NCBI RefSeq assembly: GCF_014207595.1
Contig: NZ_JACHGY010000001.1
Coordinates: forward strand, 2,362,836 to 2,426,835
Length of the DNA stretch: 64,000 nt
From: Algisphaera agarilytica
Lineage (GTDB): Bacteria > Planctomycetota > Phycisphaerae > Phycisphaerales > Phycisphaeraceae
Reading direction: 5' to 3'
Part shown: one piece after another, positions 35,362 through 38,259 of the stretch
How the letters are laid out: each line of letters begins with the position of its first letter
Numbering within the stretch: the first letter of the stretch is position 1
Notes under the pieces: model-generated
What the model was told of the DNA's origin: nothing
The model's database searches: none
What the model saw: only the letters and a program-made list of their open reading frames with translations
Made by a program: the position numbers and the translations under genes

Positions 35362-37206
35362 TTAGCGGGGTTGCTTGACTTCGCCGCCGCCGCCGGCGCC
35401 TTGGGCGGGGCCCAGGACCATCTCGTCGACGGACTTGCCGGCGGGGACCATGGGGTACACGTGTTCGTGCTTCTCGACGAGCGCGTCGAGGATGGCCGGG
35501 CCGTCGTAGGCCAGGAACTCGTCCATCACCTTCGGCAGGTCTTCGAGCTTGGTCACGCGGAACGCGCCGCAGTGCATCGCTTCGATGAGCTTGCAGAAGT
35601 CGGGGTTGTGCATCTCGGTGTGGCTGTAGCGTTCTTCGTAGAACAGGTCCTGCCACTGCTTGACCATGCCCTGGAAGTCGTTGTTGAGGATGATGGTCTT
35701 GGCGGGGATCTTGTACTGGGCGGCGGTGGTCATCTCCATGGCGGTCATGGAGAAGCTGCCGTCGCCGTCGATGTTGACGACCTGGCGAGCCTTGCGGCCT
35801 TCCTTCTCGGCCTCGACCATCTCGCCGAGCTGCGCGCCCACCGACGACGGCACGCCGAAGCCCATGGTGCCCAGGCCGCCGGAGGTCAGCCACTGGCGGG
35901 GCTCGGTGTACTTGTAGAAGTGGGCGGCCCACATCTGGTGTTGGCCTACGCCGGTGGTGATGATCGCGTCGCCCTTCGACGATTTGTACAGCTGCTCGAT
36001 CACGGCCTGCGGCTTGAGGTGGAACTCACGCTCGTCGTGGTCGTAGCGGTACGGCTCGTCCTTCTTCCACTGGGCGAGTTGCTCCAGCCACGGCGTGCGG
36101 TCGTTTTCCTGGGTGAGGTGCGGCAGCAAGAGCTCGAGGTTCTTGCGGGCGTCGCCCTCGACGCCGATGGTGACGGGCACGGCCTTATTGATGTTTTCCG
36201 GGGCGATGTCGAAGTGGATGATGCCGCCACGGCCTTCGCGCTCGGCGGCGCGGGCGGCGGGGGCGAACTTCGCCACGTTGCCGGTGACGCGGTCGTCGAA
36301 GCGGGCACCGATGGACACGACGACGTCGGCGTCACGCATGGCCCAGTTGGCGTAGGCGGCGCCGTGCATGCCGAGCATGTCCACGCTGCGGGGGTCGTTC
36401 TGGTCGAACGCGCCCAGGCCTTGGAGCGTGGTGGTCACGGGGATGTTGCCGGCGTCGACACACTTCCGCAGGACTTCGGTAGCGCCCGAGAGGATCGCGC
36501 CCTGGCCGACGTAGAACAGCGGCTTCTTGGCCTGGTTGATCATGGCGGCGGCGCGTTCGATTTCGGACGACGTGCCCAACTCGCGGATGTGGTAGCCGGG
36601 CATGTGCGGCTCGGCGTAGACCTCTTCGTCGAGGACCTGAGCGGTCACGTCCTTGGGCAGGTCGACGAACACGGGGCCGGGCCGGCCGGTGGTGGCGACC
36701 ATGAAGGCCTGGTTGATGGCGCGGGGGATGTCGCGGACGTGCTTGACCAGCACGTTCCACTTGGTGCACGGCCGGGTGATGCCGGTCATGTCGGCTTCCT
36801 GGAACGCGTCGGTGCCGATTGCGCTGGTGGCGACCTGGCCGGCGAAGACGATCAGCGGGGTGCCGTCCATCAGGGCGTCTTGGAGCGGGGTGACGGTGTT
36901 GGTCGCCCCTGGGCCGGAGGTCACCAGGACGATGCCGGGCTTGCCGGTGACGCGGGCGTAGCCCTGGCCCATGTGGCCGGCGCCTTGTTCGTGGCGGGAG
37001 AGGATGAACTTGAACTGGTTCGACTCGTGGATGGCGTCGAACACGGGGAGGATCGCGCCGCCGGGGTAGCCGAAGATCGTGTCGACGTCATGCTCTTTCA
37101 TCATGGCGTTGAAGATCTGGGCACCGGTCATGCCGCGGTACTTGTCGGTGGGGGTGCCGCGACGGGCTTGGAGTTCGGTGGCGCTGAGTTGTTGGGCGGG
37201 GGCCAT
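35362..37206 (-). CDS. ilvB: Acetolactate synthase large subunit
   Basis: A 614-residue ThDP enzyme for the first common step of valine, isoleucine and leucine synthesis. Motifs include the ThDP-activating Glu region (GYPGGAILPVFDAI, about 43-56), RHEQGAGHMGQGYARVTGKPGIVLVTSGPGATN (about 73-105), FDDRVTGN, and the ThDP-Mg motif GDGSFSMTAMEMTTA...NNDFQGMVKQW. The N-terminal 20 residues are an extra Ala/Gln/Thr stretch. No regulatory subunit gene ilvN is adjacent; rsfS follows instead. A leader with a Val-rich short open frame and a consensus promoter lies upstream (37346-37459). Confidence 0.94.
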   Translation of the reverse strand: MAPAQQLSATELQARRGTPTDKYRGMTGAQIFNAMMKEHDVDTIFGYPGGAILPVFDAIHESNQFKFILSRHEQGAGHMGQGYARVTGKPGIVLVTSGPGATNTVTPLQDALMDGTPLIVFAGQVATSAIGTDAFQEADMTGITRPCTKWNVLVKHVRDIPRAINQAFMVATTGRPGPVFVDLPKDVTAQVLDEEVYAEPHMPGYHIRELGTSSEIERAAAMINQAKKPLFYVGQGAILSGATEVLRKCVDAGNIPVTTTLQGLGAFDQNDPRSVDMLGMHGAAYANWAMRDADVVVSIGARFDDRVTGNVAKFAPAARAAEREGRGGIIHFDIAPENINKAVPVTIGVEGDARKNLELLLPHLTQENDRTPWLEQLAQWKKDEPYRYDHDEREFHLKPQAVIEQLYKSSKGDAIITTGVGQHQMWAAHFYKYTEPRQWLTSGGLGTMGFGVPSSVGAQLGEMVEAEKEGRKARQVVNIDGDGSFSMTAMEMTTAAQYKIPAKTIILNNDFQGMVKQWQDLFYEERYSHTEMHNPDFCKLIEAMHCGAFRVTKLEDLPKVMDEFLAYDGPAILDALVEKHEHVYPMVPAGKSVDEMVLGPAQGAGGGGEVKQPR

Positions 37207-37345
37207 GATGGGGCTTCCGTAAAAGGTGGTGTTGTTCGGGGGGTGTTTTTAGACCTACATCGGCCTCGTGGGAGGCGGCGGGTCATGATCAAGTGTTATC
37301 GGGTCGTTCGAGCGGGATCGGCGAGTGAGGGCACGGGTCGTCCGC

Positions 37346-37420
37346 TCAGATAACGACCACGCCGACCGTCGCGACGACGGCGGGGAGGGCGATGACGAGA
37401 TGGGCGCGATCGCGTTTCAT
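37346..37420 (-). CDS. Candidate ilvB leader peptide (24 codons, Val/Ile/Leu-rich)
   Basis: A short frame, ATG to TGA, beginning MKRDRAHLVIALP and ending AVVATVGVVVI. Twelve of 24 residues are Val, Ile or Leu, with a VVVI run right before the stop. It starts nine bases after a TATAAT with a TTGACC 18 bases upstream, so transcription begins about two bases before the ATG. About 140 bases separate its stop from ilvB; they contain GTTATC...GATAAC complementarity and a GCCTC-CCAC-GAGGC hairpin. The layout matches the branched-chain attenuation leaders of ilvB and ilvG in enterobacteria. No U-tract was seen after the hairpin, so termination is unproven. Confidence 0.55.
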   Translation of the reverse strand: MKRDRAHLVIALPAVVATVGVVVI

Positions 37421-37429
37421 GGGCCGAGG

Positions 37430-37459
37430 ATTATATCGACCCACCGGCGTGGGGGTCAA
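37430..37459 (-). promoter_or_regulatory. Consensus promoter TTGACC-N18-TATAAT for the ilvB leader
   Basis: On the minus strand TTGACC (37454-37459) is separated by 18 bases from TATAAT (37430-37435). It is among the best sigma-70 matches in the window. Confidence 0.7.
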
Positions 37460-37494
37460 TACGTTGTTTGCGATCTTGCCGGGCTTTAACGCAG

Positions 37495-37532
37495 AAAACC
37501 CGCCCCGGCCGTGGCGGTCGGAGCGGGCGTGA
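37495..37532 (-). terminator. Terminator after the PEP-CTERM gene at 37552
   Basis: On the minus strand CCCGCTCCGACC / GGCCGGGGCGGG is followed by TTTTC. The stem has one or two mismatches. Confidence 0.65.
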
Positions 37533-37551
37533 TGGGGTTGGGGTTGGGGGT

Positions 37552-38259
37552 TTAGGCGGTTTCACGGCCGCGGCGGCGGGCCAACAGCACGCTGCCCAGC
37601 CCGCCCAGGGCCAGGGCCCCGGCCGGCTCGGGGACCGCGCGGAAGCTGTCCACGGCGAATTCCTGCCCGCCGACGCTGAAGAGGTTGATCGGGGTCACGC
37701 CGTCGCCGAGGGTGAGCCGGCCGATCTCGTTGCTGCCGCCCAGGCTTTGGCCGGTGAGCTCGAAATCGACGCCGTTGTAGGTGCCGTTGGTCGTGGACAG
37801 CGCCGCCCCGAGGGCCACGCCGAGGATTTGGCTGAGCCCGCCGTTGACCGCGTCCACGGCCCCGTTGACCTGCAGGTTGCTCACGCCGCCGTAGAAGGCG
37901 TAGTCGAACTGCATCAGGGTCGGGCTGCCGCCGAAGTCGAAGGTGGCCAGCACGTTGTTGAGTTCGAGTTCCTGGTCGCCGTCGCCGAAGCCGCTGGCGG
38001 GGGGGATGAACACCCGGCTCTGGACCTCGGCGAAGTTGGAGGTGAACCCGCCGCCGGGCAGGTGCATGGGGCTGACGGTGATGTCGATGCCGTCGGAGTT
38101 GAAGGTCGATACGGGCACGGCCGTGGTCCCGCCGGGCAGGGTCTCAAAGCCAGTGGCGGCGGGTAGGGCGTAGCCGGTTACAGGCAGGAGCACCGCGGCG
38201 CACGCGGCGGCGGTCCACCGGGCACGGGCCGAAGTTTGGGGGGCGATCGTTCGAAACAT
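37552..38259 (-). CDS. PEP-CTERM exported protein
   Basis: A 235-residue product with a signal peptide (MFRTIAPQTSARARWTAAAC, hydrophobic core, cleavage after YALPA) and a C-terminal PEP-CTERM anchor: AVPEPAGALALGGLGSVLLARRRGRETA. The middle is beta-rich (FDFGGSPTLMQFDYAFYGGVSNLQVNG, VDFELTGQSLGGSNEIGRLTLGDG). It probably ends up on the surface or in the matrix after exosortase processing. GGAGA lies six bases before the ATG. No enzymatic signature is seen. The terminator hairpin follows the stop. Confidence 0.85.
   Translation of the reverse strand: MFRTIAPQTSARARWTAAACAAVLLPVTGYALPAATGFETLPGGTTAVPVSTFNSDGIDITVSPMHLPGGGFTSNFAEVQSRVFIPPASGFGDGDQELELNNVLATFDFGGSPTLMQFDYAFYGGVSNLQVNGAVDAVNGGLSQILGVALGAALSTTNGTYNGVDFELTGQSLGGSNEIGRLTLGDGVTPINLFSVGGQEFAVDSFRAVPEPAGALALGGLGSVLLARRRGRETA

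Follow-up and report, generated by a model that had tools for sequence, protein, structure and literature searches.

The 64,000-nucleotide stretch of the Algisphaera agarilytica genome analysed here (the window) raises the question of whether a short valine-rich reading frame ahead of ilvB is a regulatory leader, which amino acid it might sense and by what means. Enterobacteria and actinobacteria are known to control ilvB through leader peptides; in the E. coli ilvB, ilvGMEDA and trp attenuators, a short leader rich in codons for the end product is translated during transcription. An earlier note on this DNA had read the frame as a candidate attenuation leader of this branched-chain type.

The leader and ilvB lie on the minus strand of the 4.17 Mb genome. 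As the earlier note had claimed, the frame is preceded by a near-consensus sigma70-type promoter; TTGACC (37459..37454) and TATAAT (37435..37430), 18 nt apart, agree with the consensus in 11 of their 12 positions, and this was the sole promoter-like site between 37180 and 37600 (shuffles, 0.0 ± 0.2). The leader peptide gene (37420..37346, minus strand) starts with an ATG 9 nt after the -10 box and encodes MKRDRAHLVIALPAVVATVGVVVI in 24 codons, with 7 Val, 2 Leu and 2 Ile, ending in TGA at 37348..37346. Its conserved C-terminus, GTG GTC GTT ATC TGA (37346..37360, minus strand), has Val at codons -4, -3 and -2 from the stop. The stop is directly followed by a mini-hairpin, GCGGACGACCCGT (37345..37333, minus strand), of the form GCGG-ACGAC-CCGT with a G-U closing pair, where the consensus is GCGG-NNGAC-CCGC; this most conserved part of the element had been overlooked in the first reading. 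A C-rich, G-poor untranslated stretch (37240..37332, minus strand) comes next and is a candidate Rho loading region. The presumed controlled gene, ilvB (35362..37206, minus strand), encodes the large subunit of acetolactate (acetohydroxyacid) synthase (AHAS), with all three TPP-enzyme domains present, and its ATG (37206) lies 139 nt from the leader stop, in agreement with the earlier estimate of about 140 bases. A terminator-like site (37517..37500) separates the upstream gene from the leader promoter, so that the leader probably forms a transcription unit of its own. The product of that upstream gene (37552..38259, minus strand) had no Pfam match; its C-terminus, PEPAGALALGGLGSVLLARRRGRETA, resembles a PEP-CTERM sorting signal.

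A covariance model of the element (R1) was run over 51 genomes of the family Phycisphaeraceae. It yielded 71 matches at E ≤ 1.5e-6, assigned by hand from contig positions to ilvB (45) or to valS, the gene of valyl-tRNA synthetase (26); nowhere outside ilvB and valS was an E of 1e-5 reached in the 51 genomes. The training set of R1 comprised 65 elements, mostly among the 71 matches, 10 of which (9 valS, 1 ilvB) lay outside it. ilvB was found in 47 of the 51 genomes, and in 45 of these 47 together with the element, counting G023, where the contig ends 235 nt past the element and before ilvB; in G074 the element's own contig also showed the ilvB start. Conservation in relatives had been set as a test by the earlier note, and frame, valine codons, promoter and post-stop hairpin all recur in these 45 genomes. 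The two family exceptions, G005 and G013, keep ilvB without the element. Upstream of ilvB in G013 (L325), the promoter is kept and there is a leader with an internal LVVV and without the mini-hairpin.

In addition, 62 upstream regions were read. The leaders of the relatives (e.g. MQRSHAHNLVLDSVVVS, MLSVVGVGVAVS and MQEGRTDIVRVVVAGVIVS) differ in their N-termini and are alike at their ends, and every one of them continued with TGA GCGG NNGAC CCGC or a close variant. Counts refer to a set of 46 ilvB loci from 44 genomes of the family, G041 of a sister family and the named record L049. Relative to the regions read, this set adds L154 and drops L047 (same genome as L128), L044-L046, L055 and L129-L132 (other families, with another stop context), L040, L008, L017, L048 and L050 (without the element) and L041, L125 and L133 (upstream sequence too short). 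Identity among the 46 loci was 89% across the element (-9 to +13) and 27-35% in both flanks, i.e. at background. An exact-motif scan of 397 genomes of the class, judged by the 40 bases upstream and losing some matches as the end letters of the pattern exclude T, detected Val-leader matches only in Phycisphaeraceae and in G041. Other exact-motif matches in these genomes had no Val leader and look like chance; a match at an aminotransferase gene (L166, in G025) had no matching leader and was likewise taken as chance.

Codon counts from the 46 loci are biased towards Val, because the stops of 42 of the 46 leaders were picked by hand from Val/Ile/Leu-rich frames (those of L124, L029, L016 and L154 were picked by the hairpin), and the R1 genome search, not this set, supplies the unbiased count. 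Within the set, codon -2 was Val in all 46 loci, codon -4 was Val in 42, Leu in three and Ile in one, and codon -3 was Val in 26, Ala in 12 and Leu in five, the other residues being I, P and E. Codon -1 varied (S, I, R, L, M or A at ilvB, also G at valS), giving the C-terminal pattern V-x-V-(S/I/R) before the stop. The share of Val was 9% in the N-terminal part vs 45% in the last eight codons. Synonymous changes were observed at the Val codons, with GTC, GTG and GTA at -4 and GTC, GTT and GTG at -3, as in a frame that is translated; a conserved short ORF thus precedes the operon, and its regulatory codons match the amino acid of the pathway, i.e. Val, at ilvB (45/47 genomes) and valS (26/47). 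On this codon evidence the sensed amino acid is valine rather than branched-chain amino acids generally, so that the earlier reading of an ilvB attenuation leader is supported, with its specificity corrected. Codon -2 is nearly invariantly GTT and codon -1 often AGC, which exceeds what Val would need and suggests that part of the leader-end sequence has another role. Arrest of the ribosome at the stop by a nascent C-terminus VxVS, with free valine or something else as cue in the manner of TnaC, would account for the GTTAGC conserved beyond codon needs, for the strict spacing of V-x-V-S to the stop and for the many valS leaders with only two Val codons near the stop. It appears unlikely, however, as codons -1 and -3 vary and the N-terminus has no conserved residues in leaders of 14 to 54 codons. 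This range of length (46 loci) indicates that only the leader end is under constraint.

All 46 ilvB loci of the set had a promoter of the form TTGACN-N16-18-TATACT in the equivalent position ahead of the leader. In every one of them an in-frame start (45 ATG, 1 GTG) lay 6-11 nt past the -10 box. ATGs at this distance were in frame in 45 cases and out of frame in one; L003 showed ATGs at both 0 and 9 nt. An SD-like 4-mer was observed in one of the 46 leaders. From the distance between -10 box and ATG and the near-absence of SD sequences, we predict a leader mRNA that is probably leaderless. Scanning the interval from leader to ilvB for a further promoter gave scores no better than chance (7 of 45 regions scored ≥8; mean 6.1 vs 5.9 in shuffles), and the leader promoter is therefore the likely promoter of ilvB.

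The hairpin is 13 nt long, with a 4-bp stem (GCGG-NNGAC-CCGC) and no gap after the stop, and a C-rich, G-poor stretch lies beyond it. TGA, GCGG, the loop G and CCG were invariant in the 46 loci; in the loop NNGAC, G was found in 46, A in 43 and C in 41. Most valS copies showed the stem GGGG-NNGAC-CCCC, a compensatory change. Among the 65 elements, all 260 of 260 stem cells held standard pairs, vs 30-58% in slid controls. Thirteen double changes were observed at the second stem pair, all at valS, and these may derive from few events. Judged by its pairing, the post-stop hairpin is an RNA structure. It is weak, with energies of -3.5 to -4.9 kcal/mol, and folding of the leader RNA of the window alone gave an uninformative z of -1.07. 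GGTC in the Val codons could also pair with GACC in the hairpin, but by eye this alternative seemed to lack covariation and was dropped. The conserved loop sequence NNGAC (46 loci) is what would be expected of a binding site, and the element might accordingly act on translation or RNA decay, with the hairpin binding a factor or directing cleavage, or with ribosomes reinitiating at ilvB. The element lies, however, at a large and varying distance from the ilvB start (about 87 to 303 nt), too far for reinitiation, and folding of the region downstream is only marginally more stable than that of shuffles (mean z -0.5); we consider control of this kind improbable.

Classical attenuation, in which the position of the ribosome picks an antiterminator or an intrinsic terminator as in the ilv leaders of E. 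coli and Corynebacterium, would agree with a leader carrying regulatory codons, with terminator-like hairpins in individual genomes (L016, L022 and L118) and with the larger stop-adjacent hairpins of sister families described below. Against it, no intrinsic terminator was conserved; terminator-like sites were limited to 17 of 45 downstream regions (mean score 5.3 vs 4.1 in shuffles) and TTTTT to 3 of 46, so that the missing U-tract pointed out by the earlier note holds for the relatives as well as for the window. The earlier note had also suggested complementary GTTATC/GATAAC and a GCCTC/GAGGC hairpin. These sequences are present in the window, but the pairings are not conserved, and complementarity between the leader 3' end and the region downstream was at the level of shuffles (mean z -0.04 ± 0.15, 46 loci); the GTTATC/GATAAC pairing of leader and downstream region was rejected on these grounds. 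Neither a terminator with U-tract nor an exclusive antiterminator pairing was found as a feature of the element, and a classical attenuator is improbable.

The region past the hairpin is distinguished by its base composition. In the 78 nt after the hairpin, C exceeded G in 45 of 46 ilvB loci and 23 of 25 valS loci, vs 5 of 27 control regions upstream of trpE (p 6e-11 for ilvB and 1e-7 for valS, Mann-Whitney test); this contrast is indicative only, because the controls may be partly untranscribed or coding. A C-rich, G-poor region of the type known from tnaC and mycobacterial cys leaders thus adjoins the leader stop. Rho was found in 48 of the 51 genomes and in 33 of the 33 more complete ones, which is permissive only. 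Since no intrinsic terminator is conserved, Rho is the best candidate terminator, and we infer that premature termination is probably Rho-dependent, one of the two mechanisms suggested by the earlier note and one that fits the base composition.

The second target gene is valS, which was found in 47 of the 51 family genomes with the element ahead of it in 26. The A. agarilytica valS element reads MLAAATNLASVPVS TGA GGGGACGACCCCC. In 17 of the 30 valS loci read, short Val-ended leaders lay behind -10-like boxes, as at ilvB. With Val leaders ahead of the genes of AHAS and of valyl-tRNA synthetase alike, Val-tRNA would be the natural signal. The trpE gene of A. agarilytica (TrpE by Pfam) is preceded by a 12-codon frame, MNPARRSMIWWP TGA GCGGCCGACCCGC, with a leader end Trp-Trp-Pro and the same post-stop hairpin (L136 1465..1503, corresponding to C1 3239391..3239429). 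It ranked below the 71 matches of R1 at E 0.0018, with noise beginning at 0.0079. This trpE element is probably genuine but not certain, because it is found in one of 49 family genomes with trpE and by eye has no promoter at leaderless distance. It was absent from the 30 other trpE loci read (27 with 400 nt upstream; the A. agarilytica locus is outside this count), and a single rule match at L225 was unrelated; trpE as a general third target was thus rejected. Trp-rich short frames without element or hairpin were also observed before trpE in L220, L235, L236 and L238.

The element is very probably a valine sensor, since a Val leader with its hairpin recurs in nearly all relatives and also before valS; the response itself is read from this arrangement. 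With reasonable though far from full confidence, we regard it as a leader-peptide attenuator that senses charged tRNA-Val and acts by premature termination, likely by Rho. The comparison shows the parts (the promoter and its leaderless geometry, a frame that is translated, Val codons at a set distance from the stop, the hairpin and the C-rich tract) and their sharing by ilvB and valS; the response to Val-tRNA, its direction, the termination and the role of Rho are what we infer from them. Transcription would start at the leader ATG or no more than a few bases from it, giving a leaderless mRNA that is translated immediately. With ample Val-tRNA, the ribosome would clear the two or three Val codons before the stop, terminate and depart; the hairpin could then form, the C-rich RNA would be free and transcription would stop before ilvB, most likely via Rho. 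With scarce Val-tRNA, the ribosome would stall on the Val codons beside the stop, and its leading edge would block the hairpin. The stalled ribosome would hold off the terminator machinery, and RNA polymerase would proceed into ilvB. The same device ahead of valS would yield more valyl-tRNA synthetase.

A ribosome at a stop codon extends its footprint about 10-12 nt beyond the stop, which places codons, stop and hairpin within about one footprint. Against an attenuator sensing tRNA-Val, a ribosome stalled at codon -4 would hardly extend as far as the hairpin, the 4-bp hairpin is weak and G005 and G013 do without the element. More tentatively, and with somewhat less than even confidence, we propose that leaderless Val codons, stop and 13-nt hairpin form a switch of one footprint, in which the ribosome itself gates Rho or a loop-binding factor and no alternative folds are involved; ilvB and valS would then make up a minimal valine regulon in the Phycisphaeraceae, with larger stop-adjacent stems in the equivalent position in sister families.

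Related leaders were observed in other families of the same class. Of 17 ilvB loci read in family f11, at least eight (L328, L330, L332, L335, L336, L339, L340 and L342) had leaders ending in VVVR or VAVR with a TAG stop. By eye, an apparent larger stem starts at the stop and is followed by C-rich sequence without a U-tract, e.g. CCGGCAAAGGGC..GCCCTTTGCCGG CCCCCC in L339. The stems of L328, L330, L332, L336, L339 and L342 are of the GGCCGG..CCGGCC type and seem to represent a separate, though related, RNA element. Val-ended leaders were also seen in L360 and L373 of f15, with a stop-adjacent GGTCGC..GCGGCC stem (by eye), and in L362 and L363 of f10. By the same rule, a Val-ended leader was absent from most of the other 20 stretches read, and in f9 none of 13 loci (L345-L357) had a Val leader. 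The larger stop-adjacent stems in sister families suggest that the combination of a Val leader with a stem at the stop may predate the mini-hairpin.

Like the E. coli ilvB, ilvGMEDA and trp leaders, the leader described here is a short frame with end-product codons ahead of a biosynthetic gene. Unlike them, the element has no conserved antiterminator/terminator pair or U-tract, is probably leaderless, and has Val codons fixed at the stop and a stop-adjacent mini-hairpin. In E. coli tnaC, free Trp is sensed via the nascent chain in a catabolic operon, and a Rho site lies just past the leader stop. The two are alike in having the control point at the leader stop codon and a Rho region, here a candidate, directly downstream; they differ in that the codons here are for a biosynthetic end product and a hairpin adjoins the stop. 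Leaderless polycysteine sORF attenuators in mycobacteria are said to have been described by Canestrari in 2020. For actinobacterial cys leaders, the portion of PMC1262725 used here describes Cys codons near the stop and no obvious terminator, and Rho is suggested. These polycysteine and cys leaders are closest in plan, with a leaderless short ORF, regulatory codons by the stop and no obvious terminator, whereas the element described here has valine codons, belongs to another phylum, has a hairpin directly after the stop and precedes a biosynthetic and a tRNA synthetase gene. Attenuators with a uORF, an intrinsic terminator and an alternative antiterminator are reported, in the parts of the two papers drawn on, for Corynebacterium ilvB (ilvB-II motif, PMC10272879) and Mycobacterium tuberculosis ilvB1 (PMC13236596). 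By these accounts they share with the element a branched-chain-rich uORF some 40 to 150 nt before ilvB, and differ from it in that an intrinsic terminator is not conserved here. Leaders 10-11 bp before genes, Planctomycetes included, are treated in PMC4833913, the relevant portion of which does not cover the ilvB/valS element.

Searches of Rfam 15 gave two chance matches only in window positions 36900-37800 (E up to 10) and no match at gathering score in seven loci, a search that covers ilvB-II, ilvB-OMG, T-box and ppGpp riboswitch insofar as they are included. A literature search for planctomycetes with leader peptide or attenuation found no description, and one on leader peptides of valS or valyl-tRNA synthetase found nothing on the ilvB/valS element; in the literature searched, leader-peptide control in planctomycetes is thus without prior description. 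The element is unusually compact and uniform, has covarying stems and stands before both a biosynthetic gene and the gene of the corresponding tRNA synthetase. As it lacks the textbook competing hairpins, it offers a clean test of how a ribosome near the stop gates termination. The gene of the ribosomal silencing factor RsfS (PF02410; 34869..35288, minus strand) lies 73 nt past the end of ilvB on the same strand. If it is co-transcribed with ilvB, valine shortage would also raise a ribosome-silencing factor. The element further implies that leaderless initiation and coupling of transcription and translation operate in these bacteria.
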